In this document: positions 1 through 61,166 of the stretch, piece after piece
How the letters are laid out: the number at the start of each line of letters is the position of its first letter
Position numbering within the stretch: position 1 is the stretch's first letter
Virus record (IMG/VR): IMGVR_UViG_3300025405_000009
Location: 1 to 64,000 of that record
Strand: one strand, 5' to 3'
DNA length: 64,000 bases
Source: a virus
Made by a program: the position numbers and the translations under genes
Notes under the pieces: model-generated
The model's database searches: none
The model's input: only the letters and a program-made list of their open reading frames with translations
What the model was told of the DNA's origin: nothing

Positions 1-13
1 TTATACTGAATGT
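1..13 (+). promoter_or_regulatory. Early leaderless promoter, -10 part only
   Basis: TATACT at 2-7 followed by six bases and the ATG at 14. The -35 element lies outside the window. It matches the cassette repeated through the first 8.4 kb. Confidence 0.7.
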
Positions 14-223
14 ATGAAAAATAAAGCAACCCTAAAGTCCGACGGCTGGTATATTATCTTTGTTAATGGTGAGGAGCAAGAGCTTCATCTAGCAGCTAAT
101 ACTAATCTTTTCATCTTCGATAAAGAGCATGATGGAGAGGGACATGTTGATATGTATCATTGTGAATCTGATGAATTTCAAGGCTCTATTTCACTTGAGC
201 CCGATCAGCTAATTCTTGCTTGA
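14..223 (+). CDS. Small early protein, unknown function
   Basis: A 69-residue acidic protein that opens with Met-Lys-Asn-Lys, like many neighbours. I do not recognise a family. The short beta-prone stretch (GWYIIFVNGEEQELHL) suggests a compact beta fold. The ATG lies six bases after a TATACT element, so the mRNA is probably leaderless. The next promoter begins right at its stop codon, so the gene forms its own transcription unit. Host-takeover function is only a guess from position. Confidence 0.75.
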   Translation: MKNKATLKSDGWYIIFVNGEEQELHLAANTNLFIFDKEHDGEGHVDMYHCESDEFQGSISLEPDQLILA

Positions 224-254
224 AATTCCTTTTTGATTCCTTTATACTAATAGT
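220..254 (+). promoter_or_regulatory. Early leaderless promoter
   Basis: TTGAAA at 220-225, 17 bp spacer, TATACT at 243-248, then AATAGT and the ATG at 255. The -35 element overlaps the end of the preceding gene. Confidence 0.85.
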
Positions 255-476
255 ATGAAAAATAAGATCGAAGATTGGTATCATAATACAAGCCGTCATG
301 ATAAGGTTGAGTACCTTAAGGAGACAACTGGAGCATGGTTTGATGAGCACTTCATTCACGAGCTGGTTACTTGGATAGGAGAGGATTCCTTCAATGAATT
401 CTTTAAGAATCAGCTAGTCCGTTATTGGGAGCTTAAGCCTGAGCCTGAGCTAATCGCTGAGATGATTGGAGAATAA
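255..476 (+). CDS. Small early protein, unknown function
   Basis: A 73-residue helical, acidic protein rich in Trp and Glu, with the shared Met-Lys-Asn-Lys start. No known domain is recognised. Start chosen because the ATG sits six bases behind a consensus -10. No Shine-Dalgarno is present. It lies between two genes of the same type, each with its own promoter. Confidence 0.75.
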   Translation: MKNKIEDWYHNTSRHDKVEYLKETTGAWFDEHFIHELVTWIGEDSFNEFFKNQLVRYWELKPEPELIAEMIGE

Positions 477-478
477 GC

Positions 479-513
479 TTGAAATCAAATAAGAATTCCA
501 ATATACTAATAGT
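479..513 (+). promoter_or_regulatory. Early leaderless promoter
   Basis: TTGAAA at 479-484, 17 bp, TATACT at 502-507, AATAGT, ATG at 514. Confidence 0.85.
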
Positions 514-780
514 ATGAAAATTAACGGATACAAGAAAGAGTTCATGAAGGTTGTAACCTACCGCATTGAAGATGTTCCCGAAATAGGAACAGTTATGTAC
601 TCAGATTACTACGATGATAATGATAAGATTGTAGATTCAGTAATAAGAACAGAAGATGGACACCTTCTGTTCAGAACAGACGATGGATATGCGGGGCTTA
701 CAATAGAGGTACCATCAGTCCTAAAGGATATTCAGAACTTTATTGGTACAGAGTTTAATGCAGTTACAACATCGGTTTAA
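514..780 (+). CDS. Small early protein, unknown function
   Basis: An 88-residue acidic protein beginning Met-Lys-Ile. The middle has alternating hydrophobic residues and many Asp and Tyr (around residues 25-55), consistent with beta strands. It is not recognised. The promoter geometry fixes the start and implies a leaderless mRNA. The next gene follows after 41 bp. Confidence 0.75.
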   Translation: MKINGYKKEFMKVVTYRIEDVPEIGTVMYSDYYDDNDKIVDSVIRTEDGHLLFRTDDGYAGLTIEVPSVLKDIQNFIGTEFNAVTTSV

Positions 781-783
781 GGC

Positions 784-821
784 TTGCAGTTCAGACTATA
801 ACACTATAACATATAGACATA
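784..821 (+). promoter_or_regulatory. Variant early promoter
   Basis: TTGCAG at 784-789 and TATAAC at 805-810 with a 15 bp spacer. The ATG at 822 lies 11 bases past the -10, so a leader of about 4-5 nt is expected. It is a looser copy of the cassette. Confidence 0.5.
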
Positions 822-1022
822 ATGAAAATCACAATCGATATTGATAACGGAGAGATTAGTTCAATCATTGATACGTTAAAGGATCAGGGAATTGATGTAA
901 CAATGTTCGATGTACAAGAGGCTTTAGAAGAGTACTTTCATGGAGTAATTGAGGACTTTGAAGAGTCTAGAATGGATACTGTTATTGATATGTTAATTGA
1001 TAGTGCTGATGTTCAGGAGTAG
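822..1022 (+). CDS. Small early protein, unknown function
   Basis: A 66-residue very acidic protein with a predicted helix-rich second half (DVQEALEEYFHGVIEDFEES). Start chosen at the only ATG behind a promoter-like sequence. No family is recognised. It ends just before a late-type gene whose regulation looks different. Confidence 0.7.
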   Translation: MKITIDIDNGEISSIIDTLKDQGIDVTMFDVQEALEEYFHGVIEDFEESRMDTVIDMLIDSADVQE

Positions 1023-1083
1023 ATGATCTATCTATCATAGATAGAAGGACAAATAGATATCAATTTGAATAAGTATATTGGTA

Positions 1084-1548
1084 ATGCAAAATGATGCTCA
1101 TCTTATTTCCGAAACTTATGAACAGGTTATGATAAATGAAAGTATTGTTCCTTTTATTCCTTTAATTCTCAATCAACTCAATAACCTTCATACAACATAT
1201 AGTTCTTCTACAGGAGGTGGAACAGTTGATCCTAAAGAAGCTGTAGCTATTATTACTGCTTGTATTACTTTGATTACTCTTTCCTTAGGTGGATTTACAG
1301 CTGTATTTCTTGGAAAAGATATCGTGAATGCTATTAAAACGGCTCGTCATTGGATCCTTTCAAAGGTTACTTCTATTGATGTTAATGAGTTAGAGGAAGC
1401 AGCTAGTAAGGCAAAAGCTATTCTTAAAAATCCTTCTGAGAAGGGACAGATTACAACTTGGGTCAATAGGTTAAAAGCTGCATCTGATAAAAAAGATAGC
1501 GCTGGAATGCATAAAGCTTTTGAACACCTAACAGAACTAGTTAAGTAG
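1084..1548 (+). CDS. Membrane protein with capsid-targeting-like N terminus
   Basis: A 154-residue protein if started at the ATG at 1084; an in-frame TTG at 1078 would add two residues. The N terminus (NDAHLISETYEQVM) matches the hydrophobic-x-Glu peptide found on many proteins in this genome and resembles the T4 internal-protein targeting peptide. Residues about 55-85 form one strongly hydrophobic segment (AIITACITLITLSLGGFTAV), followed by a basic, helical tail. Inference: a protein carried in the head and possibly inserted in the host membrane after injection. Nothing in the sequence proves packaging. Function unknown. Confidence 0.7.
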   Translation: MQNDAHLISETYEQVMINESIVPFIPLILNQLNNLHTTYSSSTGGGTVDPKEAVAIITACITLITLSLGGFTAVFLGKDIVNAIKTARHWILSKVTSIDVNELEEAASKAKAILKNPSEKGQITTWVNRLKAASDKKDSAGMHKAFEHLTELVK

Positions 1549-1552
1549 AAGG

Positions 1553-1786
1553 TTAGGCCTCTTCCATACTAACAACCTTACCATTTAAGATCTGAAAGTA
1601 ATAAGGTTGTTTACCTGTCTCTATCTTAGTACTGTCAATGGATTGGGACAATTGGAGCTTTAAGGGTGTGTCATAAGGCCTATTGACTAGTATAGAATTA
1701 GAATCAACCTTAAGGACAACAAAAGGTCCTAGTGTATTATTAGTGATAGACTCTAGTATAGACTCAACTAAATGATTAAAAGACAT
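1553..1786 (-). CDS. Hypothetical protein, possible late gene
   Basis: A 77-residue protein of mostly beta character. It is convergent with the gene ending at 1548. Upstream on its strand lies a TTAAATA element about 13 bases before the ATG, resembling the late promoters of this phage. The start (SFNHLVESILES) has a hydrophobic-x-Glu pattern that could be another targeting peptide, but this is weak. No family recognised. Confidence 0.6.
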   Translation of the reverse strand: MSFNHLVESILESITNNTLGPFVVLKVDSNSILVNRPYDTPLKLQLSQSIDSTKIETGKQPYYFQILNGKVVSMEEA

Positions 1787-2028
1787 AGATAGATAGAAGT
1801 ATTTAAGATAAAAAACATATAGTCTAAAAGAAAAAAGTATATGAATTAAAAGAAAAGTACTATAGATAGGATGATCCTATAAGGAGTGATAGGTTATTAC
1901 TATAGTATAGATATATAGTTTTGAACAACGATTAGCCCCGTTTAGTTATTAAAAGCGGGCGGATTCTCCAGCCCCCCCATAGGCTATACTCACTCTACTA
2001 ATAGTCTAGAACTGTTAGAAATATAGAA
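1787..2028. other. Non-coding interval with GC-rich patch
   Basis: No open frame is convincing here. The left half is A-rich. Positions about 1930-1980 hold an abrupt GC-rich patch with a loose inverted repeat (CCCCG and GCGGG around a 14-base loop) and a C7 run, followed by a TATACT at about 1985. It could end a transcript or belong to a small RNA. No known class is recognised. Confidence 0.4.
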
Positions 2029-2229
2029 ATGAAAGGAAATAACTATACATGGGGTAGAATGATAGGAAGAACCTATCTATATAGAGAAAAGGTATGGAAT
2101 AGAAGGATGGGAATGTATAAACATAAGTCGATCCCAGCTCCCAAAGTTCCTAAACTGCAACATCTAGGCAAGAAACGGTTTTTTCTTGCATATTCCCCCG
2201 AATTCCTGTATAATCTCTTTAATGAATAA
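2029..2229 (+). CDS. Small basic protein, unknown function
   Basis: A 66-residue protein, strongly basic (many Lys and Arg), in contrast with its acidic neighbours. It contains a Pro-rich middle (SIPAPKVPK). The promoter is not clear: the usual cassette is absent directly before the ATG. Its last eight bases overlap the next gene, and the next promoter lies within its 3' end. A nucleic-acid-binding role would fit the charge but is unsupported. Confidence 0.55.
   Translation: MKGNNYTWGRMIGRTYLYREKVWNRRMGMYKHKSIPAPKVPKLQHLGKKRFFLAYSPEFLYNLFNE
2186..2221 (+). promoter_or_regulatory. Early leaderless promoter inside preceding gene
   Basis: TTGCAT, 17 bp spacer, TATAAT at 2209-2214, then seven bases to the ATG at 2222. 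The whole element lies inside the coding end of the previous gene. Confidence 0.7.
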
Positions 2230-2437
2230 GAAACCACCGAATTATTACGATTGCTTTATTGACTCCCTGCTTCAGCTTCCGCCGAAAGTCCGGAATGCTG
2301 TGCTTCGGGCAGCTAGTACCGTATCTACGGATGGTAACCCCTATCTTTATCTATGGAATTGTTACTCCGATATGGATAACGCTACGGGTAACTACATTAA
2401 AGAACTCTTTGATGAGTACAATCTAGCCCTAGACTAA
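2222..2437 (+). CDS. Small early protein, unknown function
   Basis: A 71-residue helical protein starting MNKKPPNYYDCF. The start at 2222 is chosen over an upstream in-frame ATG at 2186 because it alone fits the promoter geometry. No family is recognised. It is followed after three bases by an RNase III-like fragment, so the two were probably one transcription unit. Confidence 0.65.
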   Translation: MNKKPPNYYDCFIDSLLQLPPKVRNAVLRAASTVSTDGNPYLYLWNCYSDMDNATGNYIKELFDEYNLALD

Positions 2438-2440
2438 CAT

Positions 2441-2620
2441 ATGAGAAAGTTTTTAACTAACCCATATAAGTTCTTCCTATATAAACTAGGATATGAACTA
2501 AGAGAAAACAGACCAATTTTTGACTACCTAACTCGATTTACTCATTCATCTTATTTCGAAGATAGGATGAATAATAATGACTTAGATCGGTTCGAATATC
2601 GTTTATTTTCTATATATTAG
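2441..2620 (+). pseudogene. RNase III 5' fragment, broken in the signature motif
   Basis: A 59-residue frame whose end (FTHSSYFEDRMNNNDLDRFEY) matches the start of an RNase III catalytic domain, where the family reads roughly FTHSSY...NERLEFLGD. RNase III cleaves double-stranded RNA and is normally above 200 residues. Here the frame hits TAG directly after the motif. If the 24 bases following the FEY codons are skipped, the frame reads Leu-Gly-Thr-Ser, close to the expected LGDS, then stops again after 11 more codons. The dsRNA-binding part is missing. It is a truncated remnant or the first exon of an interrupted gene; no second exon is visible in the window. Confidence 0.55.
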
Positions 2621-2629
2621 TATCTAGGT

Positions 2630-2935
2630 ACTTCTGGAAGTATCAAGCTAAAAATTCGGAACCACTAACTCCTCCGAAAATGAAGTGAAGGGGGCTTGAA
2701 CTAAGATATGAGGATGACGTGAGTCAATCGGAGTACTCCCAGCTAACTAACATACATTCGTCTTACCGAACTAGCGAGCTGTTTTTAACCTGGACCCTGC
2801 TCAACGTCCCTTCTCTTATTATCCATTCATTATAGTGGCTCAGACTGGAACCTGCAATAGGAATCTGAATTACTTTCCCGAGGGATCAGAGGTCCAGTCT
2901 TATTATATGAAAAATCCCCGGGGACGTCAAGCTTA
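2630..2935 (+). ncRNA. Candidate large structured RNA
   Basis: About 300 bases with no long frame and many nested complementary arms. TCAAGC 2643-2648 pairs with GCTTGA 2694-2699 and encloses TTCGGA 2655-2660 with TCCGAA 2673-2678. ACGTCCC 2804-2810 pairs with GGGACGT 2921-2927 and encloses AGACTGGAACC 2842-2852 with GGTCCAGTCT 2891-2900 (one bulged base), TCTGA 2864-2868 with TCAGA 2886-2890, and TCC/GGA around CGAG. CTGGACC 2790-2796 could compete for GGTCCAG 2891-2897. The class is not recognised; I could not match group I intron core elements. It follows the RNase III fragment directly, so an intron or other ribozyme is possible. Confidence 0.5.
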
Positions 2936-2945
2936 AAATTCAGGC

Positions 2946-2980
2946 TTGAAGTCCTTTATGAATTCCCTTATACTAATAGT
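2946..2980 (+). promoter_or_regulatory. Early leaderless promoter
   Basis: TTGAAG at 2946-2951, 17 bp, TATACT, AATAGT, ATG at 2981. Confidence 0.85.
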
Positions 2981-3130
2981 ATGAAAAATAAGTACAACAT
3001 AACAAACGAAATCGAGCGCTTCAAAAAGTTCATGAATTGGTGTGAGGAGAACTTTGATAACCTTTCCGAGAAGGAACAAGACGAGATTTGTAACATTAAA
3101 AACGATCCAGACGAAATTTTTAACTGGTAA
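2981..3130 (+). CDS. Small early protein A1, duplicated family
   Basis: A 49-residue acidic helical protein starting Met-Lys-Asn-Lys. It is a paralogue of the gene at 4940: both share the pattern EIERF..F..W..ENF..LS.K. The pair A1-B1 (this gene and the one at 3160) is repeated as A2-B2 at 4940 and 5145, showing duplication of a two-gene block. Function unknown. Confidence 0.75.
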   Translation: MKNKYNITNEIERFKKFMNWCEENFDNLSEKEQDEICNIKNDPDEIFNW

Positions 3131-3159
3131 TTCCTTCCAAATTCCTTTATACTAATAGT
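3125..3159 (+). promoter_or_regulatory. Early promoter with degenerate -35
   Basis: The -10 TATACT, AATAGT and ATG (3160) are perfect, but the -35 position reads TGGTAA and overlaps the stop of the preceding gene. Expression may be weaker or partly read-through. Confidence 0.6.
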
Positions 3160-3312
3160 ATGAAAATTGAAATACCTGATACAACGATCGAAGCCCTCAA
3201 AAATGCTCTTCAAAAAGAGCATAACATGGAAGTTAGTCAACAAGATCTTGAACGAAAGATTAACGACTTAATTTCTGATTGGGTTAGTGATCTAGAAGTC
3301 TGGGAAGATTAA
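3160..3312 (+). CDS. Small early protein B1, duplicated family
   Basis: A 50-residue acidic helical protein, paralogue of the gene at 5145: the first 17 residues are the same except one (MKIEIPDTTI then E or Q). It ends with a Trp-rich tail (DWVSDLEVWED). Second member of the duplicated pair. No known domain. Confidence 0.75.
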   Translation: MKIEIPDTTIEALKNALQKEHNMEVSQQDLERKINDLISDWVSDLEVWED

Positions 3313-3314
3313 GC

Positions 3315-3349
3315 TTGAAGTTCCAACCAAATTCCAATATACTGAATAT
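3315..3349 (+). promoter_or_regulatory. Early leaderless promoter
   Basis: TTGAAG at 3315-3320, 17 bp, TATACT at 3338-3343, GAATAT, ATG at 3350. Confidence 0.85.
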
Positions 3350-3730
3350 ATGAAAAATAAGAACTATAAAGGTGTAGAAATTTATACAGGTTATAATGAG
3401 ATGTCTTTTTGTAATAAAGATGGAGACATTAGGACTTGGGTTAGTGATAAGAATGTTGGTGATTTAGGTAAACAAATTAGTAAAGAGTTAACTACTGAAT
3501 GTTATGAGTGGTTGTTAAAGGATGATGAAGAGATGACTAAAGAGACTGCTTTAGAGTATGCTAGTGAGTGGACTGATTATGTTAATGTAGTTAACGAGAA
3601 TGAAGTTTGTGTAGGTTTTAGTGAAGAGAGTATGTATTTTATTGTAAGTGAGGATAGTGAATGGTATAATAAATTGGATAAAGAAAGTGAAGAGTTAGCT
3701 GAGTACTTACAGGAGATTGATTTTGATTAA
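3350..3730 (+). CDS. Early acidic protein, unknown function
   Basis: A 126-residue protein, the longest of the early array, very acidic, with the Met-Lys-Asn-Lys start. The N-terminal third looks beta-like (YKGVEIYTGYNEMSFCNKDG), the rest helical with many Glu and Trp. Its codons use T/A-ending forms almost throughout, unlike several neighbours that use C-ending codons, hinting at a separate origin. No family recognised. DNA-mimic behaviour is possible from charge alone. Confidence 0.75.
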   Translation: MKNKNYKGVEIYTGYNEMSFCNKDGDIRTWVSDKNVGDLGKQISKELTTECYEWLLKDDEEMTKETALEYASEWTDYVNVVNENEVCVGFSEESMYFIVSEDSEWYNKLDKESEELAEYLQEIDFD

Positions 3731-3732
3731 GC

Positions 3733-3767
3733 TTGAAGTTCCTTTCAAATTCCAATATACTAATAGT
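3733..3767 (+). promoter_or_regulatory. Early leaderless promoter
   Basis: TTGAAG at 3733-3738, 17 bp, TATACT, AATAGT, ATG at 3768. The element starts four bases after the preceding stop. Confidence 0.85.
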
Positions 3768-3950
3768 ATGAAAATAAAAGAACTAATCGAACATCTCAAC
3801 AAATTCAATCCTGAAGCTGACATCCATATGTGTGATGTGGAGTCAGAGGCTAAACTCGCTTTTTATGATATTGCTGAAGCTGAAGATGTAAAGAATACAG
3901 TTATGATTATTGTTGAGACTGATTACGATGATGAAGATGACGGAGATTAA
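3768..3950 (+). CDS. Small early acidic protein
   Basis: A 60-residue protein (MKIKELIEHLNKFNP...) ending in an Asp/Glu-rich tail. The pattern of an N-terminal helix, then NPEADIHM and strands resembles small phage proteins of the form 'L..FNPDAEV', but I cannot name a family. The start at 3768 is set by the promoter; an upstream in-frame ATG at 3717 lies in the preceding gene and is rejected. Confidence 0.75.
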   Translation: MKIKELIEHLNKFNPEADIHMCDVESEAKLAFYDIAEAEDVKNTVMIIVETDYDDEDDGD

Positions 3951-3952
3951 GC

Positions 3953-3987
3953 TTGCAGTTCCAATCAAATTCTAATATACTAATAGT
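3953..3987 (+). promoter_or_regulatory. Early leaderless promoter
   Basis: TTGCAG at 3953-3958, 17 bp, TATACT, AATAGT, ATG at 3988. Confidence 0.85.
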
Positions 3988-4203
3988 ATGAAAAATAAAG
4001 AACCACTAAACGAGAAAATCCAAAATCAAGTCACCTACCTTCCTATTCCTAAAGGAGTAGATATTGATGTAGTAGCTGAGATTATTGCTGACGATCAATA
4101 CGATCTCATCTTCCTGAAGGATGGTATATTGTGTAAGAATGATAGGGTTAAGGATGTAAAGGGAACTATTAGTGAGGCTCAAGAAGACTCTGACGAAGAA
4201 TAG
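3988..4203 (+). CDS. Small early protein, unknown function
   Basis: A 71-residue acidic protein with the Met-Lys-Asn-Lys start. It has a strand-rich middle (VAEIIADDQYDLIFLKDGIL) and a charged tail. No family recognised; the promoter fixes the start. Confidence 0.7.
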   Translation: MKNKEPLNEKIQNQVTYLPIPKGVDIDVVAEIIADDQYDLIFLKDGILCKNDRVKDVKGTISEAQEDSDEE

Positions 4204-4205
4204 AC

Positions 4206-4240
4206 TTGACATTTCCTTATAACCAAGCCATAATAATAGT
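4206..4240 (+). promoter_or_regulatory. Early leaderless promoter, perfect -35
   Basis: TTGACA at 4206-4211, 17 bp, CATAAT at 4229-4234, AATAGT, ATG at 4241. This is the best -35 match in the array. Confidence 0.85.
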
Positions 4241-4447
4241 ATGAAAAATAAGAACAACGACCAGGAGATTAAGCACTACATTGAAGTTGATAGGTATGAA
4301 GGTACAGTTAGGATCTTGGATCTAACTAATGAAAATGAGGTAGAGAACCTTGAGTACTTCAAAGAGAATGGAGAGAAGTCTGTAGGAGAAGGTGGGTACA
4401 TTACTTGGGATGGTGAGGAGTCAATGATCATTCAAGTTCCTGCTTGA
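4241..4447 (+). CDS. Small early protein, unknown function
   Basis: A 68-residue acidic beta-rich protein (HYIEVDRYEGTVRILDL) with the Met-Lys-Asn-Lys start. It ends at the promoter of the CAA-leader gene at 4517. Unknown function. Confidence 0.7.
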   Translation: MKNKNNDQEIKHYIEVDRYEGTVRILDLTNENEVENLEYFKENGEKSVGEGGYITWDGEESMIIQVPA

Positions 4448-4516
4448 CCTTCCTTTAAAATTCAATCATAATAGAAGAGTAGAATAAGTCAACCAACAAC
4501 AACAACAAAAAACAAC
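4444..4516 (+). promoter_or_regulatory. Promoter with CAA-rich 5' leader
   Basis: TTGACC at 4444-4449, 17 bp, CATAAT at 4467-4472. Unlike the leaderless cassette, the ATG lies 44 bases further on. The expected leader of about 38 nt has AGAAGAGTAGAATAAGTC and then repeated CAA units, with no Shine-Dalgarno. A nearly identical leader precedes the paralogue at 6576. Confidence 0.75.
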
Positions 4517-4825
4517 ATGTCAACAGCAACTAAAACACCAACCGACGTTATCGACTATCTCGTAAGTTATTTCGAGACTTTTGGTAACCTTCCTACGCCA
4601 GTTATCGAATGTCAGGTATCAGGTACTGCCTATACTGCCTTTGGTACTAACCTCAAGAATAAGATTGAGAAGGCTGGAGGTATTAAGAATCTTCTTACGA
4701 CCTTCACTGGAAAGGGAGTAGTTAAGAAGAAGGAAGTTAAGTCTGAGACTAACATCGAAGCTCGACCTAAAAAGAAGACAGTTAAGGTCCAGAAGAAGGT
4801 AGTTAACGCCGATTGTCCTTTCTAA
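4517..4825 (+). CDS. Basic conserved protein, paralogue 1
   Basis: A 102-residue protein with a conserved core (residues about 8-75: pattern YFETFGNLPTPVIECQ, TAFGTNLKNKIEKAGG, LLTTFTGKG) and a Lys-rich tail. The core is about 85% identical to the gene at 6576 at protein level, although the DNA has diverged widely at synonymous sites, so the sequence is under selection. The compact helical core with a basic tail suggests DNA or RNA binding; I cannot name the family. Its special CAA-rich leader implies higher or different translation from its neighbours. Confidence 0.75.
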   Translation: MSTATKTPTDVIDYLVSYFETFGNLPTPVIECQVSGTAYTAFGTNLKNKIEKAGGIKNLLTTFTGKGVVKKKEVKSETNIEARPKKKTVKVQKKVVNADCPF

Positions 4826-4850
4826 AAGAATAGCTCGGTAAAGGGATAAG

Positions 4851-4894
4851 GAGGTGGAGGCGTTAATATGGGCCTTCACCTCTAAACCTTTTTT
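4851..4894 (+). terminator. Rho-independent terminator
   Basis: GAGGTGGAGGC at 4851-4861 pairs with GCCTTCACCTC at 4872-4882 (one G-T pair), loop of ten bases, then TAAACC and a T6 run at 4889-4894. It ends the CAA-leader transcript. Confidence 0.7.
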
Positions 4895-4904
4895 AAGAAT
4901 AGAC

Positions 4905-4939
4905 TTGTAATTCCTTTCAAATTCCATTATCATAATAGT
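4905..4939 (+). promoter_or_regulatory. Early leaderless promoter
   Basis: TTGTAA at 4905-4910, 17 bp, TATCAT at 4928-4933, AATAGT, ATG at 4940. Confidence 0.75.
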
Positions 4940-5107
4940 ATGAAAAATAAGAACACCGAAAAAGCCAAATACAACGTCGATACTGAGATTGAAAGGTTCG
5001 AGGACTTTATTAGTTGGGCTCAAGAGAACTTTGAAAAGCTCTCGAAAAAGAATCAATGTAAACTTGAAAACTTTTCTTACTCCGTTCAAGATACAGTCTC
5101 GTTTTAA
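4940..5107 (+). CDS. Small early protein A2, duplicated family
   Basis: A 55-residue helical protein, paralogue of the gene at 2981 with the shared EIERF..F..W..ENF..LSKK pattern. First member of the second copy of the duplicated pair. Function unknown. Confidence 0.75.
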   Translation: MKNKNTEKAKYNVDTEIERFEDFISWAQENFEKLSKKNQCKLENFSYSVQDTVSF

Positions 5108-5109
5108 GC

Positions 5110-5144
5110 TTGAATGTTCCTTCTAATCCAGCCATAATAATAGT
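5110..5144 (+). promoter_or_regulatory. Early leaderless promoter
   Basis: TTGAAT at 5110-5115, 17 bp, CATAAT, AATAGT, ATG at 5145. Confidence 0.8.
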
Positions 5145-5294
5145 ATGAAAATTGAAATACCCGATACAACGATCCAAGCCCTCAAAAATGCTCTTCTTGA
5201 AGATCATAATAAGGAAGTTAATTTGACAGATCTTGAATACAAAATTAACGACCTAATTACTGAATGGGTAAGTGAGCTAGCTTGGCAAGATTAA
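5145..5294 (+). CDS. Small early protein B2, duplicated family
   Basis: A 49-residue acidic helical protein, paralogue of the gene at 3160 (shared MKIEIPDTTI, ALKNAL and KINDLI). It completes the second copy of the two-gene block. Function unknown. Confidence 0.75.
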   Translation: MKIEIPDTTIQALKNALLEDHNKEVNLTDLEYKINDLITEWVSELAWQD

Positions 5295-5296
5295 GC

Positions 5297-5331
5297 TTGA
5301 ACGTTCCTAATCATTCATTCATAATAATAGT
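5297..5331 (+). promoter_or_regulatory. Early leaderless promoter
   Basis: TTGAAC at 5297-5302, 17 bp, CATAAT, AATAGT, ATG at 5332. Confidence 0.8.
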
Positions 5332-5553
5332 ATGAAAAATAAGAACACCGAAACGATCGAACAATACGAAAACATTACTGGAGCTATCTACAAGAATCTA
5401 AAAGAGCTGAAGGAGTTGATGGCTACTAAAAATTACAAAAAGGCCCTGAAATGGGATCAGGAAGAGAATGATTGTGATAGTAATTTGCATGGTGAGTTTA
5501 GTTGCTTCATTCAAGATCTGACCGAGATTACTTACCTCATGGAGAAAGAATAA
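5332..5553 (+). CDS. Small early helical protein
   Basis: A 73-residue Glu- and Lys-rich helical protein (Met-Lys-Asn-Lys start; ITGAIYKNLKELKELM). Unknown function. Promoter fixes the start. Confidence 0.7.
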   Translation: MKNKNTETIEQYENITGAIYKNLKELKELMATKNYKKALKWDQEENDCDSNLHGEFSCFIQDLTEITYLMEKE

Positions 5554-5555
5554 GC

Positions 5556-5590
5556 TTGAAGTTCCTTCCAAATTCCTATATTATAAATTT
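5556..5590 (+). promoter_or_regulatory. Early leaderless promoter, variant -10
   Basis: TTGAAG at 5556-5561, 17 bp, TATTAT at 5579-5584, AAATTT, ATG at 5591. Confidence 0.8.
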
Positions 5591-5878
5591 ATGAAAAATA
5601 AAGTAACGTGTGGTGAAATGTCAGAATTAGTTGATGGTGCTTTGATAGATGTGAGTGATGATATTACACTTGATGATATGTATAGGATGTATGGAGATGA
5701 TTATAGTAAGGATATTATTGATATTTTATGGAAGGGTGTACTAAAGATTCGTGAAGGTGGTGGAATTGATAATCCTGATGAATATAAGATTTGTGATGAT
5801 GTTTACAATGAGTTAGAAGCTAAAGGCTTTGTTGAATGGCACCCTAGGGAAGCTCAAGCAGAAATGGAGAAAGAATAA
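5591..5878 (+). CDS. Early acidic protein, unknown function
   Basis: A 95-residue very acidic protein with the Met-Lys-Asn-Lys start. It uses A/T-ending codons heavily, like the gene at 3350. Helical with several Asp/Gly turns. No family recognised. Confidence 0.7.
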   Translation: MKNKVTCGEMSELVDGALIDVSDDITLDDMYRMYGDDYSKDIIDILWKGVLKIREGGGIDNPDEYKICDDVYNELEAKGFVEWHPREAQAEMEKE

Positions 5879-5880
5879 GC

Positions 5881-5915
5881 TTGAAGTTCCTTCCAAATTC
5901 CCTTATACTAATAGT
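5881..5915 (+). promoter_or_regulatory. Early leaderless promoter, consensus copy
   Basis: TTGAAG at 5881-5886, 17 bp, TATACT at 5904-5909, AATAGT, ATG at 5916. This copy is the consensus of the array. Confidence 0.9.
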
Positions 5916-6128
5916 ATGAAAATTAAAACATCCAAAAAGCAAAAAGAACAATTCGCCCTTCTTATTAATGGAGAGCAATATGAAGTAGGGGATATTATGG
6001 AATGTCCTGTAGAAGGTAGTGAGGGTACGTTAGTTGGTATTGATGAGAATGAGTATCATTTTTATGCAGATGGAGAGGGATATTCACATCCTATTCCGGA
6101 TGATGTTGAGGTCATAAAATTGGCTTGA
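5916..6128 (+). CDS. Small early protein, beta-barrel-like
   Basis: A 70-residue protein (MKIKTSKKQKEQF...). The stretch LINGEQYEVGDIMECP.EGSEGTLVGID looks like a small SH3-like barrel with a basic N terminus and an acidic rest. Not assigned to a family. An upstream in-frame start at 5829 lies inside the previous gene and is rejected. Confidence 0.7.
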   Translation: MKIKTSKKQKEQFALLINGEQYEVGDIMECPVEGSEGTLVGIDENEYHFYADGEGYSHPIPDDVEVIKLA

Positions 6129-6159
6129 ACTTCCTTCTTAATTCCCTTATACTGATTGT
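6125..6159 (+). promoter_or_regulatory. Early leaderless promoter
   Basis: TTGAAC at 6125-6130, 17 bp, TATACT, GATTGT, ATG at 6160. Confidence 0.85.
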
Positions 6160-6291
6160 ATGAAAATTAAGAAATGGACAGTCGAAATTAAAGAGGTCAA
6201 GGTTCGTCAACCCTTTGCCCCACTTACTAAGAAATTCAAGAACTTGAAAGCTTATAACAGAAAGCGGATGAAGCTTGCGTTCGCCGAATAG
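6160..6291 (+). CDS. Tiny basic early protein
   Basis: A 43-residue strongly basic peptide (Lys/Arg about one third; C terminus KAYNRKRMKLAFAE). The next gene's promoter is nested in its last codons. A nucleic-acid-binding role is plausible from charge only. Confidence 0.65.
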   Translation: MKIKKWTVEIKEVKVRQPFAPLTKKFKNLKAYNRKRMKLAFAE

Positions 6292-6309
6292 TTCCGTTAT
6301 ACTAATAGT
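6275..6309 (+). promoter_or_regulatory. Early promoter nested in coding end
   Basis: TTGCGT at 6275-6280 inside the preceding gene, 17 bp spacer crossing its stop, TATACT, AATAGT, ATG at 6310. Confidence 0.8.
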
Positions 6310-6507
6310 ATGAAAAATATAAGAAAGCCGTTTACAGCCGGACAGGTTATGGACCAGATCATTGAATCTCTAACCGATCATGATGTAGGTTGGGTTAATG
6401 TTCATGAATCCAGTCCTGGATCTTCCCAGGCTGTAGTTAGTGTACAGTCCGTTCATGAAGAGATTTCCAATAAGAAATTCAGGATCATCGTTGTAGAAGA
6501 GGCTTGA
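6310..6507 (+). CDS. Small early protein, unknown function
   Basis: A 65-residue protein with an alpha-beta pattern (AGQVMDQIIESL then beta strands ending KFRIIVVEEA). Starts Met-Lys-Asn-Ile. Not recognised. Confidence 0.7.
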   Translation: MKNIRKPFTAGQVMDQIIESLTDHDVGWVNVHESSPGSSQAVVSVQSVHEEISNKKFRIIVVEEA

Positions 6508-6575
6508 AGTTCCAACGAATATTAATCATAATAGAAGAGTAGAATAAGTCAAACAACAACAAACACAAAACTAAA
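6504..6575 (+). promoter_or_regulatory. Promoter with CAA-rich 5' leader
   Basis: TTGAAG at 6504-6509, 17 bp, CATAAT at 6527-6532, then the same AGAAGAGTAGAATAAGTC block and CAA-rich leader as at 4444-4516. Predicted leader about 37 nt; no Shine-Dalgarno. Confidence 0.75.
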
Positions 6576-6899
6576 ATGAACAAAAACAACACGCCCGCTG
6601 AAGTGATCGAGTACCTAACTAACTATTACGAGACGTTCGGAAATCTCCCGACTCCTGTAATTGAGTGCCAAGTGAGTGGAACGGCGTATACGGCGTTCGG
6701 AACTAACTTGAAGGGTAAGATTGAGAAAGCGGGTGGAATTAAGGAGCTCCTTACTACCTTTACAGGTAAGGGAGTAGTGAAGAAGGCAGATGTTAAGAAG
6801 GAGGTAACGGCTACGATTACCCCTCGAAAGAAGACCACTAAGAAGGTCATTCACATCTCAGCTAACGACCTGGAAAAGAATCGAGTTAGTCTAGCCTAA
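6576..6899 (+). CDS. Basic conserved protein, paralogue 2
   Basis: A 107-residue paralogue of the gene at 4517. The core differs by only a few residues (NLPTPVIECQ, GTAYTAFGTNLK and LLTTFTGKGVVKK are shared), while the basic tail differs. Strong protein conservation with extensive synonymous change argues for two maintained functional copies. Function unknown. Like its partner it is followed by a structured RNA segment. Confidence 0.75.
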   Translation: MNKNNTPAEVIEYLTNYYETFGNLPTPVIECQVSGTAYTAFGTNLKGKIEKAGGIKELLTTFTGKGVVKKADVKKEVTATITPRKKTTKKVIHISANDLEKNRVSLA

Positions 6900-6910
6900 C
6901 TCAATCAATT

Positions 6911-7012
6911 TTAGTCAAGAGCACATCTCTAGGTGAAGGATTAGGTAAGGCGGTCGGAAACGATCAAACCTCTAGCAACCTTAATAAACTAGGTAGGATG
7001 GCTCTTGACTGA
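6911..7012 (+). ncRNA. Candidate structured RNA with GNRA hairpin
   Basis: AGTCAAGAGC at 6913-6922 pairs perfectly with GCTCTTGACT at 7001-7010. After a one-base bulge, CATC 6924-6927 pairs with GATG 6997-7000. Inside, CTAGGT 6929-6934 can pair with ACC..TAG at 6968-6975, and GGTCG 6952-6956 pairs with CGATC 6961-6965 around a GAAA loop. CTAGGT occurs again at 6989-6994 and could swap partners. This looks like a junctioned RNA such as a riboswitch or ribozyme, not a simple terminator. The class is unknown. Confidence 0.55.
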
Positions 7013-7021
7013 ATAATTTTC

Positions 7022-7056
7022 TTGAAGTTCGAATTGAATTCCGTTATACTGATCGT
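7022..7056 (+). promoter_or_regulatory. Early leaderless promoter
   Basis: TTGAAG at 7022-7027, 17 bp, TATACT, GATCGT, ATG at 7057. Confidence 0.85.
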
Positions 7057-7320
7057 ATGAAAAATAAGAACAACGAAGCAGTAACGACAATCGAATTCAA
7101 GCGCAGCCGTCATGGTGATCCCTTCGATCGCGGTTCAATGGATAGCTACTATCGCCGTAGCCGGAATCCTCATTACTTTGTCGGTGGTACTGGATGCAGT
7201 CCTCGTATTGAAGAGGCCCAGATGACCGAGCTTGAGGTGTTGGCCTATCATGCAGGGTTTGATTCGAACGAGAGGGAGGGAGACTATAAGGATTATGGAT
7301 GGGGGAATGGGCGGTATTAA
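7057..7320 (+). CDS. Conserved small phage protein (RGS-DSYY type)
   Basis: An 87-residue protein with the pattern DPFDRGSMDSYYRR...PHYF, then MTELEVLAYHAGFDSNE and a KDYG end. I recall this pattern as a recurrent small protein in many unrelated phages, without a known function. It is hydrophilic and rich in Arg, Tyr and Gly. The start is fixed by the promoter. Confidence 0.75.
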   Translation: MKNKNNEAVTTIEFKRSRHGDPFDRGSMDSYYRRSRNPHYFVGGTGCSPRIEEAQMTELEVLAYHAGFDSNEREGDYKDYGWGNGRY

Positions 7321-7323
7321 GCC

Positions 7324-7358
7324 TTGAACTTCCAACCAGAATCCCTTATACTGATCGT
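7324..7358 (+). promoter_or_regulatory. Early leaderless promoter
   Basis: TTGAAC at 7324-7329, 17 bp, TATACT, GATCGT, ATG at 7359. Confidence 0.85.
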
Positions 7359-7619
7359 ATGAAAAATAAGAACAACGTCGGAGCACTGAAGTGGGGCAAG
7401 AAGGTCATGATCGAGAGCGGAAGCTCGGCCTGGTATGATCACTCTTATTATAGTGTGCCTTTTGTTGGCACTCTTGACGTTAGTAAGATGCGATCGGCTC
7501 TGTCAAAGAGGTATCCTAACACCGGTAATTACTTCGGAGGGTATACCACGGTTGGTGACATTTCACTTCTTAATGATGGGCATGTTAAGGTAGAGCTCAT
7601 TCACCATATAGGGAATTGA
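7359..7619 (+). CDS. Small early protein, unknown function
   Basis: An 86-residue protein with the Met-Lys-Asn-Lys start, rich in Gly, Tyr and Ser, mainly beta. The start at 7359 follows the promoter; an in-frame ATG at 7299 lies inside the preceding gene. Unknown function. Confidence 0.7.
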   Translation: MKNKNNVGALKWGKKVMIESGSSAWYDHSYYSVPFVGTLDVSKMRSALSKRYPNTGNYFGGYTTVGDISLLNDGHVKVELIHHIGN

Positions 7620-7622
7620 TGC

Positions 7623-7657
7623 TTGTACTTCCAACTAGAATCCCTTATACTAATAGT
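7623..7657 (+). promoter_or_regulatory. Early leaderless promoter
   Basis: TTGTAC at 7623-7628, 17 bp, TATACT, AATAGT, ATG at 7658. Confidence 0.8.
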
Positions 7658-7771
7658 ATGAAAATTAAAGAAATCGATTCACTAGTCGTCTTGATAGCTG
7701 TCCTATCCGTTATTGGTCTTACCTGTATCAGTCTTCTTGTCTATCTTGGCATTTACATTTACAACTATTAA
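7658..7771 (+). CDS. Single-pass membrane micropeptide
   Basis: A 37-residue peptide: a short charged start (MKIKEID), then one membrane helix over about 25 residues (VVLIAVLSVIGL through VYLGIYI) and a two-residue tail. It has a full promoter cassette, which supports that it is real. It may act in the host inner membrane, for example in exclusion, but no homologue is known to me. Confidence 0.7.
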   Translation: MKIKEIDSLVVLIAVLSVIGLTCISLLVYLGIYIYNY

Positions 7772-7774
7772 GCC

Positions 7775-7809
7775 TTGAAGTTCCAATCAAAGTCCATTAT
7801 ACTGATAGT
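7775..7809 (+). promoter_or_regulatory. Early leaderless promoter
   Basis: TTGAAG at 7775-7780, 17 bp, TATACT, GATAGT, ATG at 7810. Confidence 0.85.
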
Positions 7810-8067
7810 ATGAAAAATAAGAACAACGGAAAGAACACAAAAGTCGAAACCCTCAAAGAGCGCTATAAGGTCGGAGACGTCCTGAAGGTGATTGAGTCCT
7901 TTCAAGACGGAAGAGGCGGGACGGATAACATCACTCACTACATTACTATAACGAAAGTGAATAGGGTGACGGTAGAGGGTACCGAAGGTAAGGGTGGTGA
8001 GGTGATCTTAGATCTTCAGGATCTCTTCCACGCAAAGAAAGTCATTCAGAGGGAGATCCTTGCTTGA
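7810..8067 (+). CDS. Small early beta protein, unknown function
   Basis: An 85-residue protein starting Met-Lys-Asn-Lys. The middle (YKVGDVLKVIESF, then ITITKVNRVTVEG) has alternating hydrophobic residues typical of a small barrel. Unknown function. Confidence 0.7.
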   Translation: MKNKNNGKNTKVETLKERYKVGDVLKVIESFQDGRGGTDNITHYITITKVNRVTVEGTEGKGGEVILDLQDLFHAKKVIQREILA

Positions 8068-8098
8068 ACTTCCAATCAAATTCCCTTATACTAATAGT
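8064..8098 (+). promoter_or_regulatory. Early leaderless promoter
   Basis: TTGAAC at 8064-8069, overlapping the preceding stop, 17 bp, TATACT, AATAGT, ATG at 8099. Confidence 0.85.
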
Positions 8099-8338
8099 AT
8101 GAAAAATAAAGACAACGTAACAGTAAAGCAATTGACAGATAAGCTCACCGAACTATGTGCAGCTAAGTATCCTAATGATCGTTCGATGAAATGGGCTTAC
8201 GTTTGTGGAGTGTTAGAGGCGATGTTAGATTGGGAGGTTAAGGGATATGATAAGGGTATCAAGACTCTCCAAGAGAGAGTTAATGAGGCTTTTGAGAGGT
8301 ATGAAGAGGAGTTAGAGGCTGAATTAACAATTGCATAA
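8099..8338 (+). CDS. Small early helical protein
   Basis: A 79-residue all-helical protein (KQLTDKLTELCAAKYP, MKWAYVCGVLEAMLDW, then a Glu-rich helix). Start set by the promoter. Unknown function. Confidence 0.7.
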   Translation: MKNKDNVTVKQLTDKLTELCAAKYPNDRSMKWAYVCGVLEAMLDWEVKGYDKGIKTLQERVNEAFERYEEELEAELTIA

Positions 8339-8366
8339 TTAAACAAATTCCATTACAATAATAACA
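8331..8366 (+). promoter_or_regulatory. Early-type promoter
   Basis: TTGCAT at 8331-8336, inside the preceding gene's 3' end, 17 bp, TACAAT at 8354-8359, seven bases, ATG at 8367. Confidence 0.7.
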
Positions 8367-12778: not shown

Positions 12779-12786
12779 AATAAATA
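12779..12786 (+). promoter_or_regulatory. Late promoter AATAAATA
   Basis: Late element exactly five bases before the ATG at 12792, so transcription should start at the ATG. Confidence 0.7.
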
Positions 12787-19897: not shown

Positions 19898-19932
19898 TTG
19901 ATTAATGCATGTTATATTAGTATAATGCTGAT
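19898..19932 (+). promoter_or_regulatory. Early leaderless promoter
   Basis: TTGATT at 19898-19903, 17 bp, TATAAT at 19921-19926, GCTGAT, ATG at 19933. Confidence 0.75.
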
Positions 19933-20493
19933 ATGACATATCTTAATGTAGATCTTGCTACAGAAACAATTATACCTAATGACTGTAGAGTAATAGCTGA
20001 CAAGGAGTATCCAATTTGTTTACTAGGCTTTCAATTAAAAAATGCATATGATCAATTAAGATTGAAAATCAAAAAGATTTATAAATTTCAAGACTATGTT
20101 CATTTTTTGCCTGATAGTGGCGCCACAACAACATTTTTTCGCGGTATACAATTAAATCCTTTACCAGCAGTTAATTCTTTGTTTAGACAATTAGAACAGT
20201 TTAATATTTCACTAACAGATCTACCTGTTAAAAGATATGAATCTGTTTTACACGAATATAATTTATCTTGTAAGGAGTGTTATGGTAATTTACAACGTGG
20301 TATTTACCCTGTAGATGGTAATAGTCTGAAGCATATTACAAATGATAAGATTGATTTAAATGACTTATATGAGAATGCTTTTGATACTGATAGTGTCCCA
20401 ATTTTTCAATCATATAGCTATCTCACCATTTATATTCTCAGTAATAAAAGCATTTACCGAACCGGTACAGATAATTTAATATTTAAACTTTAA
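19933..20493 (+). CDS. Hypothetical protein with early promoter
   Basis: A 186-residue protein of mixed structure. It contains a Cys pair (LSCKECYGN) and no motif I recognise. It has an early-type promoter although it sits among late genes. Unknown function. Confidence 0.65.
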   Translation: MTYLNVDLATETIIPNDCRVIADKEYPICLLGFQLKNAYDQLRLKIKKIYKFQDYVHFLPDSGATTTFFRGIQLNPLPAVNSLFRQLEQFNISLTDLPVKRYESVLHEYNLSCKECYGNLQRGIYPVDGNSLKHITNDKIDLNDLYENAFDTDSVPIFQSYSYLTIYILSNKSIYRTGTDNLIFKL

Positions 20494-39279: not shown

Positions 39280-39753
39280 TTAGTTAATGTAGAATCCAGA
39301 ATTACTTAATGTACCTACTATCTGGAAGCTTGTATTGTTTAGTGTTGGAACAGATAAACTAATTGTTATTAAGAAAGTATTTGTAGCTGGTTGAGCTATA
39401 ACTTGAATTTTATTAATGCTTACGCGTGGTTCAAAAGTTGTTATATTATACTGAATTTCTTGACCAATAAGTGCAGCTGTATCCTCATCACAAGGTTGAA
39501 AGATATATTGAGATAAATTTGATCCAAAAAACGGATTTAATATCTTTTGACCAGGAATTGTTAAAAATATATTGGTAATAGAATTTTTTATGGCTCCAAG
39601 ATCGTAATCTACAATTATATCAGTAATTTCATAATTACGCTGTGCTTCTTGATTTACAAGATATTTGTACTGTATATCTAAATGAAGATCTGAGTACGTA
39701 AACGGGTTTGTAAGCTTCGTTTGTTTCTGAAGAGTTTGTAGTTTTATCGCCAC
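39280..39753 (-). CDS. 25: Baseplate wedge gp25
   Basis: A 157-residue gp25-like protein. The characteristic Glu-Pro-Arg core is present (TTFEPRVSINKIQV), with GAIKNSITNIFLTIPGQKIL before it. The family seeds sheath assembly at the baseplate. It begins with GTG exactly five bases after a perfect late element, so the mRNA should start on the GTG. Confidence 0.88.
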   Translation of the reverse strand: MAIKLQTLQKQTKLTNPFTYSDLHLDIQYKYLVNQEAQRNYEITDIIVDYDLGAIKNSITNIFLTIPGQKILNPFFGSNLSQYIFQPCDEDTAALIGQEIQYNITTFEPRVSINKIQVIAQPATNTFLITISLSVPTLNNTSFQIVGTLSNSGFYIN

Positions 39754-39758
39754 ATTAT

Positions 39759-39766
39759 TATTTATA
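39759..39766 (-). promoter_or_regulatory. Late promoter TATAAATA, leaderless
   Basis: Perfect late element five bases before the GTG of gp25. Confidence 0.8.
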
Positions 39767-48283: not shown

Positions 48284-49531
48284 CTACTGAGCACCAGGAC
48301 CGCGACTACCAAATCCAGAGCCTGGATTAATTATAGGTGATGTAACAGTAAGTCCGGCACGAGGGCTTGGAACATTACCAGTATCGGTACCTGTTTGAAT
48401 TATATTTTGTGAAGAAATCATATGAGACATAAAATTTCTTGTATTAGCATTCATACTCTGTAGTGTAATTGATATTTTATACGCATCCGGTATAATTGTT
48501 GTAATATTAGTTGTACCTTGAGAGTTACTAACGGAAGTTTGAGCACTATTAACCGAACTATTTAAAGAAGGTATAGCCATTGTCATTTCACGTCTTGAGC
48601 CTACAAATTCCACATTAAGATTACTAATATAACAGTATGGAAAGAATTTTGTTCCAGGTATAGATACTTCATATATAACAGGTTGATCGACAGTATTAAA
48701 ACCTGTCTTGCCTGGTCTATTTTGATACACAAGTAAGTAAATAAATTGCCAATTTCTTACAACATCATCATATGTTGCAGATCCGGTATTAATGAGAGGA
48801 AATTCTACTGTAACTGATTCACCATCTGTTGGGTAATCATAGAATTTTGTTTTTTCAATAAATGTGTATTCTGTTGGTGAACCGACTTGTGAAACATCTT
48901 CTGCAATACCTTCCAATACACCTAACCCTTCTTTAGCAAAACTACCTATAAGACCCTTACCCTGGCCACCGCCTTCACTAAAAGCATTATCCTGCTTAGT
49001 ATGGTTATTGTCAAAATATGGTAATGTATAAACCCATTTTGTGTTTTCGGTTATATACAAATTTCTATATGGTTGTAAGTATGGACTTGCTTTTGTAGTA
49101 GGGTTGTCATCACTACCTAATAAGGCTCCTGCAGCTCCCGGGCTATTAGCATACTGTTGAAGTAACTTTGATAAATTAGTAGCACCAGCATCTTGTACTA
49201 ATTTAGCACCACCATTTTCAAGGGCACCTAATGTATATTGTAATTGTGCAATAAGAGAGTTTGTCTTTAATCTCTTTTCTGTTAATCTAATTCTTGGTAC
49301 TTCAGCACGACCTGCATCACCAAGTGGTGAGTATGTCCAGTAAAAATCACGTACAACATTTATTTCTGTAAATTTAGAATTACCGTTTTTACCGGTCGGT
49401 GTTAAGACCGGCATAGGAGTTATAGCATTTTGAGAAGGAGTTACTCCAGATGGGTTATTACCTTGTGGGTTAGCAGTATTAGAAGTAGTGCTAGGTGAGG
49501 TAGGTGTAAAAGCCCAAAGAAAGTTTGGCAT
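48284..49531 (-). CDS. Baseplate tail-tube cap gp48/gp54-like
   Basis: A 415-residue protein. Its C-terminal half (VIYEVSIPGTKFFPYCYISN then LNVEFVGSRREM) is diagnostic of the gp48/gp54 tube-initiator family. The first 60 residues are Pro/Asn/Thr-rich. It sits between tape measure and gp53, as in T4-like tail clusters. Confidence 0.8.
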   Translation of the reverse strand: MPNFLWAFTPTSPSTTSNTANPQGNNPSGVTPSQNAITPMPVLTPTGKNGNSKFTEINVVRDFYWTYSPLGDAGRAEVPRIRLTEKRLKTNSLIAQLQYTLGALENGGAKLVQDAGATNLSKLLQQYANSPGAAGALLGSDDNPTTKASPYLQPYRNLYITENTKWVYTLPYFDNNHTKQDNAFSEGGGQGKGLIGSFAKEGLGVLEGIAEDVSQVGSPTEYTFIEKTKFYDYPTDGESVTVEFPLINTGSATYDDVVRNWQFIYLLVYQNRPGKTGFNTVDQPVIYEVSIPGTKFFPYCYISNLNVEFVGSRREMTMAIPSLNSSVNSAQTSVSNSQGTTNITTIIPDAYKISITLQSMNANTRNFMSHMISSQNIIQTGTDTGNVPSPRAGLTVTSPIINPGSGFGSRGPGAQ

Positions 49532-49536
49532 ACTAT

Positions 49537-49544
49537 TATTTATC
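49537..49544 (-). promoter_or_regulatory. Late promoter GATAAATA, leaderless
   Basis: Late element exactly five bases before the ATG at 49531. Confidence 0.7.
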
Positions 49545-57642: not shown

Positions 57643-57650
57643 TATTTATA
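57643..57650 (-). promoter_or_regulatory. Late promoter TATAAATA
   Basis: Perfect late element six bases before the sheath ATG; leader of about one base. Confidence 0.8.
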
Positions 57651-61158: not shown

Positions 61159-61166
61159 TATAAATA
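61159..61166 (+). promoter_or_regulatory. Late promoter TATAAATA, leaderless on GTG
   Basis: Perfect late element five bases before the GTG at 61172. Confidence 0.75.

Follow-up and report, generated by a model that had tools for sequence, protein, structure and literature searches.

The first 64 kb of the 198,847-bp virus record IMGVR_UViG_3300025405_000009 (the window, 64,000 nucleotides) open with an array of small genes, most of which are preceded by a near-identical promoter that abuts the start codon. Leaderless or near-leaderless expression is, in our judgement with high probability, the best explanation both of this early array and of the late promoters of the same phage, a member of a T4-superfamily clade that appears not to use Shine-Dalgarno (SD) motifs. 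The array is assigned to the early class from its promoter type only.

Direct reading of positions 1-8366, with the sequence aligned at the ATGs, gave 20 complete early units, each with a TTGAAG-like -35 box, a spacer of exactly 17 bp, a TATACT-like -10 box and exactly 6 nt before the ATG, and this geometry is kept in all 20 (Table 1). One unit truncated at the contig end and three variants (one whose gap is 7 nt and two in which an unstructured, CAA-rich leader of 37-38 nt separates the predicted +1 from the ATG) bring the early-type promoters in the array to 24, in good agreement with the original prediction of about 25. That prediction also placed the unit before nearly every gene with its spacing held to the base, which stands for the 20 exact units and has to be softened for the three variants and for the genes at 822 and 1084, upstream of which no convincing early unit was found. 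Further conserved blocks are a C preceding the -35 box, TTCC at -29 and ATTCC at -19, with A at -3 and A or G at -6; the promoter consensus is TATACTAATAGT, which does not match the -7 box TAnnTTTG of the Bacteroidota sigmaA. A motif scan of the whole record, suggested beforehand as a check, confined the array to the first 8.4 kb and returned a single further good unit, at ATG 138503 of the genome (L019:14503). This isolated unit has the exact geometry and lies 130 kb from the array, close to the tRNA cluster (17 tRNA genes at genome positions 140184-170454, in the last third of the record). A Pfam search with ten of the array proteins gave no match.

The early array is also present in eight other viral contigs (nine with this phage), two of which (G005 and G007) encode a close terminase large subunit (TerL); none was found in the other six, which are possibly fragments. 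A core model spanning -36 to -7, trained on 20 of the sites with no base after the -10 box and blind to everything downstream of it, detected 98 sites in the nine contigs. An ATG opening an open reading frame (ORF) lies exactly 6 nt after the -10 box in 79 of these 98 sites (and in 67 of the 80 that pass a stricter cut-off), and chance is excluded as the source of this spacing because the frequency of ATG in the region is only 0.023 per position. Among cassettes encoding non-homologous proteins, to which the comparison was restricted, identity is 0.27 upstream, 0.70 in the -35 box, 0.38 in the mid spacer, 0.87 in the -10 box, 0.70 in the discriminator, 1.0 in the ATG (a value fixed by how the units were chosen), 0.81 in codons 2-4 and 0.31 in codons 7-10. 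Conservation extends from -36 to about +15 and is back at background by codon 7, confirming the shared opening ATG AAA AAT AAG and carrying the block slightly beyond the +12 first proposed. Codon 2 is AAA in 72 cases and AAG in one, the Asn of codon 3 is always AAT among the counts listed, and codon 5 is AAC in 37 cases against a phage-wide preference of 4:1 for AAT; the common descent of the cassettes inflates these counts, so that P values for the codon bias are not independent-sample probabilities. The early ORFs are real and are coding from near the ATG, because substitutions are commonest at the third position as early as codons 6-15 (271 versus 153 and 122 at the other two positions).

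Sigma70 polymerase starts transcription about 7 nt after the -10 hexamer, so that with a gap of 6 nt the expected +1 in the early units is the A of the ATG. The units look like sigma70-type promoters with a predicted +1 at this base, and the predicted 5' ends of the early mRNAs are rich in A and more weakly folded than the gene bodies (-1.2 versus -4.7 kcal/mol per 40 nt). The late promoters, analysed with gene starts from a coding-score caller that ignores upstream sequence, provide an independent check. The motif TAAATA is enriched immediately upstream of genes in the phage. In the phage and its relatives other than G009, taken together, 49 genes show a gap of 5 nt from TAAATA to the start codon, 35 a gap of 6 nt and 17 one of 7 nt, with declining numbers beyond; gaps of 3 and 4 nt occur in no gene of the pooled set. 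In G009 the edge lies at 4 nt, a gap seen in 12 genes, with a further 14 genes at 5 nt. The late octamer of T4 begins at -13 (PMC2988020), which makes +1 the sixth base after the octamer and leaves a gap of 5 nt. The sharp edge in our phage is thus T4's own octamer-to-+1 distance, and the predicted +1 is strengthened by this agreement. The same gap in T4 itself is mostly 24-28 nt, and the pattern is not shown by T4, a cyanophage, a pelagiphage or a rhizobiophage. About ten TTGATT-16/17-TATAAT promoters, 6-11 nt before ATGs, tentatively constitute a middle class.

SD-like motifs were found at 7% of the phage starts versus 9% in a control stretch, and there is no SD enrichment genome-wide; the corresponding values are 69% for T4, 56% for HTVC008M, 62% for phiM9 and 33% for P-HM2. 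Rhodothermus phage RM378 was considered as a cultured parallel owing to its few SD motifs and was set aside, as the TAAATA pattern is absent from it. The proposal that sigma70 transcription starts at the A of the ATG, yielding leaderless mRNA, is supported by the promoter geometry, the genome-wide absence of SD motifs and the matching late promoters, with +1 itself a prediction. Leaderless translation as the rule for the early region proved too narrow a description, as the late class behaves likewise, and it has two clear leadered exceptions; in other respects it is well supported.

The phage is T4-like, as had been predicted. Its T4-type TerL, which was used to place it, is 32-39% identical to those of T4-like phages, and a T4-type major head protein (phrog_138, E 9e-82), the gp44 clamp loader (E 2e-79) and the late sigma factor gp55 (phrog_234, E 1e-24) were also identified, together with TATAAATA-type promoters. 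No cultured phage similar at the DNA level was found. A gene for bS21, a ribosomal protein that adjoins the anti-SD region of the 30S subunit, is located at 167 kb and is also present in five relatives (G007 and G009-G012); it is plausible that this protein helps the 30S subunit to accept leaderless mRNA. A search for the host with a TerL profile against bacterial genome contigs returned no relatives. The DegT aminotransferase of the phage gave five mixed matches (Bacteriovoracaceae, Patescibacteria, Alphaproteobacteria and a partial match of 61% in Flavobacteriales), and bS21 gave similar weak scores across the three phyla sampled. In a flavobacterium, 5.5% of mRNAs are leaderless and sigmaA recognizes TAnnTTTG (PMC9723704), and most transcripts of Flavobacterium johnsoniae are leadered (PMC6847099). 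The early TATACT box differs from the flavobacterial sigmaA element, which speaks against a Bacteroidota host.

Several observations weigh against leaderless expression. The +1 positions derive from consensus rules and could be 1-3 nt off. The two cassettes with leaders of 37-38 nt imply that leadered mRNAs are translated as well, and many late genes have no near promoter and must therefore be translated within longer mRNAs. No genes for IF1 or IF3 were found in the phage, and a role of bS21 in leaderless initiation is only suggestive. If the host belonged to the Bacteroidota, the absence of SD motifs would be host-like.

The claim of a separate mRNA for every tiny gene found no support. The junctions between cassettes contain no consistent hairpins and no T-run longer than 6, and their folds are weak and variable (mean -9.3 versus -7.7 kcal/mol when shuffled). 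In 42 of 85 units the last base of the preceding gene's stop codon falls inside the TTGA of the -35 box or two bases upstream of the TTG, leaving no space for a terminator. Given this lack of terminators, early transcripts are probably nested, reading through into the following genes, so that internal genes would also be translated without SD motifs. The same lack is in keeping with an alternative in which the promoters are real but early protein comes mostly from longer read-through mRNAs, AATAGT-ATG being an A-rich, Kozak-like start region rather than a 5' end. The absence of SD motifs everywhere in the phage agrees with this, and the bases at -3 and -6 resemble the preference of F. johnsoniae for A at -3 (PMC6847099). 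However, the fixed distance of 6 nt from -10 to ATG, the sharp 5-nt minimum gap of the late octamers and the variable mid spacer (0.38 identity) would all be left unexplained, and we regard this alternative as unlikely.

Conservation of the unit could also stem mainly from recent copying, with the spacing and codons 2-5 hitchhiking, free of translational selection, in a mobile promoter cassette for gene shuffling. Paralogous cassettes do exist (start ATGs 2981/4940, 3160/5145 and 4517/6576), the ORFs are mostly unrelated with families scattered among contigs, and the previous gene's stop is often built into or adjoins the -35 box. Yet the functional blocks are 0.70-0.87 identical when the mid spacer (0.38) and flanks (0.27) are near background, and the late promoters share the geometry despite being unrelated in sequence; copying without translational selection is accordingly given very little credence. 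Gene shuffling and leaderless expression are themselves mutually compatible. A short leader peptide coupled to the main gene (TTG ... GTA TGA, its stop overlapping ATGA) is scarcely credible: although this 12-codon frame is open in many units, the conserved positions fit promoter hexamers rather than codon positions, the frame of the unit at ATG 3160 opens with TGG and no upstream initiation signal was seen.

Under leaderless expression, host RNA polymerase would fire the early promoters, with the AUG of the proximal gene as the start of the mRNA, and each promoter whose geometry is described above would yield a leaderless message opening AUG AAA AAU AAG at the predicted +1. Codons 2-5, which display the synonymous bias, may be selected as nucleotides, serving as initially transcribed and ribosome-loading sequence. 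Genes farther along the read-through transcripts would be translated from internal starts lacking SD motifs. A smaller sigma70-like promoter group may serve the middle genes, and late genes would be transcribed from T4-type promoters, presumably read by the phage gp55, which lie 5-8 nt before many ATGs and would give leaders of 0-3 nt. The clade would thus dispense with SD motifs in favour of largely leaderless or near-leaderless mRNA, perhaps aided by its own bS21. A wider proposal, which we advance tentatively and hold to be somewhat doubtful, is that of a widespread environmental T4-like clade in which all temporal classes are mainly leaderless, SD initiation has been abandoned, a phage bS21 adapts host ribosomes, and the -36 to +15 block acts both as a joint transcription and translation start signal and as a gene-shuffling module.

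Table 1. Early units, late and middle promoters and other features, in coordinates of the window
Feature	Coordinates	Strand	Details	Basis
Truncated unit at contig end	1-31	+	TATACT-GAATGT-ATG; ATG 14; ORF 14-223	sequence, ORF
Unit	219-272	+	ATG 255; TTGAAA-17-TATACT-AATAGT-ATGAAAAATAAG	
Unit	478-531	+	ATG 514	
Variant unit, 7-nt gap	2185-2239	+	TTGCAT-17-TATAAT-CTCTTTA-ATG; ATG 2222; ORF to 2437	
Putative early non-coding RNA	2690-2857	-	Promoter TTGCAG-17-TATAAT-GAATGG-A; predicted +1 2822	
Unit	2945-2998	+	ATG 2981	
Unit	3124-3177	+	ATG 3160; weak -35 TGGTAA	
Unit	3314-3367	+	ATG 3350	
Unit	3732-3785	+	ATG 3768	
Unit	3952-4005	+	ATG 3988	
Unit	4205-4258	+	ATG 4241; hexamers TTGACA, CATAAT	
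Early promoter with leader	4443-4517	+	38-nt unstructured CAA-rich leader; predicted +1 4479; ATG 4517	
Unit	4904-4957	+	ATG 4940	
Unit	5109-5162	+	ATG 5145	
Unit	5296-5349	+	ATG 5332	
Unit	5555-5608	+	ATG 5591	
Unit	5880-5933	+	ATG 5916	
Unit	6124-6177	+	ATG 6160	
Unit	6274-6327	+	ATG 6310	
Early promoter with leader	6503-6576	+	37-nt CAA-rich leader; predicted +1 6539; ATG 6576; gene a paralogue of 4517	
Unit	7021-7074	+	ATG 7057	
Unit	7323-7376	+	ATG 7359	
Unit	7622-7675	+	ATG 7658	
Unit	7774-7827	+	ATG 7810	
Unit	8063-8116	+	ATG 8099	
Late octamer	12779-12786	+	AATAAATA, 5 nt before ATG 12792; predicted leaderless	
Possible middle-class promoter	19898-19935	+	TTGATT-17-TATAAT-6 nt-ATG 19933	
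Late octamer	39759-39766	-	TATAAATA, 5 nt before GTG of 39280-39753	
Late octamer	49537-49544	-	GATAAATA, 5 nt before ATG of 48284-49531	
Late octamer	57643-57650	-	TATAAATA, 6 nt before ATG of 54973-57636	
T4-type TerL	58279-60033	-	Used for placing the phage	
Late octamer	61159-61166	+	TATAAATA, 5 nt before GTG 61172	

The minus-strand stretch at 2690-2857 contains no ORF, begins at a promoter with the geometry of the units, is conserved in three relatives [L110:19098-19340, L108:1930-2196 (-) and L106:11150-11440 (-)] and is a possible early non-coding RNA. An alignment of the four sequences contains 21 predicted pairs, six of which show compensatory changes; a fold of one sequence alone does no better than shuffled sequence, and an Rfam search of the stretch gave no match. 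Early-type promoters also precede conserved ORF-less stretches (GTGCAGCCGGCATTTGGGG... and GGTCTGGGGAAAAATTTGGGGGGCGGAAGG...) in G001 and G006 [L111:14841 (-), L111:15096 (+), L113:6562 (+) and L113:6306 (-)], which are perhaps further non-coding RNAs.

Elsewhere in the genome, positions 92081-97141 [L017:8084-8731 (-), L017:10368-11099 and L017:12362-13138] encode a GTP cyclohydrolase I, a 6-pyruvoyl tetrahydropterin synthase and a protein with a weak 4Fe-4S (radical SAM-like) match, which suggests a preQ0/7-deazaguanine pathway that may serve to modify DNA. The DegT aminotransferase and GDP-mannose dehydratase/epimerase genes at 99125-111130 (L017/L018) likely represent phage-carried surface-sugar biosynthesis. 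In G007, TerL is split into two pieces about 1.2 kb apart (G007:105014-107966), perhaps by an intron or an inserted homing gene.

Textbook accounts of gene expression use T4 as a model, and SD motifs precede most of its genes. If the leaderless reading is correct, a T4-superfamily clade has replaced its initiation mode while keeping the late sigma/TATAAATA system. The dozens of near-identical leaderless start signals would form a natural set, with the two leadered paralogues as internal controls, and the phage bS21 would be an assayable candidate for an effect on leaderless initiation. Gene finders that depend on SD motifs may misplace starts in these phages.

Leaderless phage mRNA is already known, as in the lambda cI transcript; what is apparently new here is its use in a T4-type transcription programme and its tie to a promoter-plus-codons cassette. 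No T4-superfamily phage with a comparable arrangement was found in the open-access literature, which is weak evidence of novelty. The late promoters share the TATAAATA octamer core with the gp55-dependent late promoters of T4, and the phage has a gp55 homologue; in T4, however, the octamer lies mostly 24-28 nt before the ATG and SD motifs are common, whereas in the present phage the distance is 5-8 nt and SD motifs are not used. Promoter/stem-loop (PeSL) cassettes, which Arbiol in 2010 and Comeau in 2014 reportedly described, are said to occur in a plastic region of T4-type phages, where they supply early promoters in the spaces that separate small ORFs. The present units are similar in being early promoters in intergenic cassettes between small ORFs and differ in having no consistent stem-loop, in abutting the ATG and in a conserved block that runs on into the gene.

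Phage transcripts have been called 'often leaderless', yet those of AR9 have leaders of 26-491 nt (PMC5312081). Large freshwater phages of Bacteroidetes encode a bS21 that is proposed to act on translation, with no mention of leaderless mRNA (PMC9723584); their bS21 gene shares a reverse-strand region with those for TerL and head proteins, whereas in the present phage bS21 is at 167 kb and TerL at 59 kb. In Deinococcus-Thermus, a -10 element a few bp from the start codon yields leaderless mRNA, and a -35 element placed 17 bp upstream raises output (PMC12340547). These '-10 adjacent to ORF' genes resemble the present units in having the -10 box beside the start codon; they are cellular, depend weakly on the -35 element and lack a fixed cassette of promoter plus codons 2-5. 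Most middle and late mRNAs of the large Thermus phage phiYS40 are reportedly leaderless (PMC3594737). The likeness lies in a large phage with leaderless mRNAs; phiYS40 is set apart by a thermophilic host from a leaderless-rich group and by the middle and late classes being the only ones described, and the present clade by its T4-type late promoters and early cassettes.

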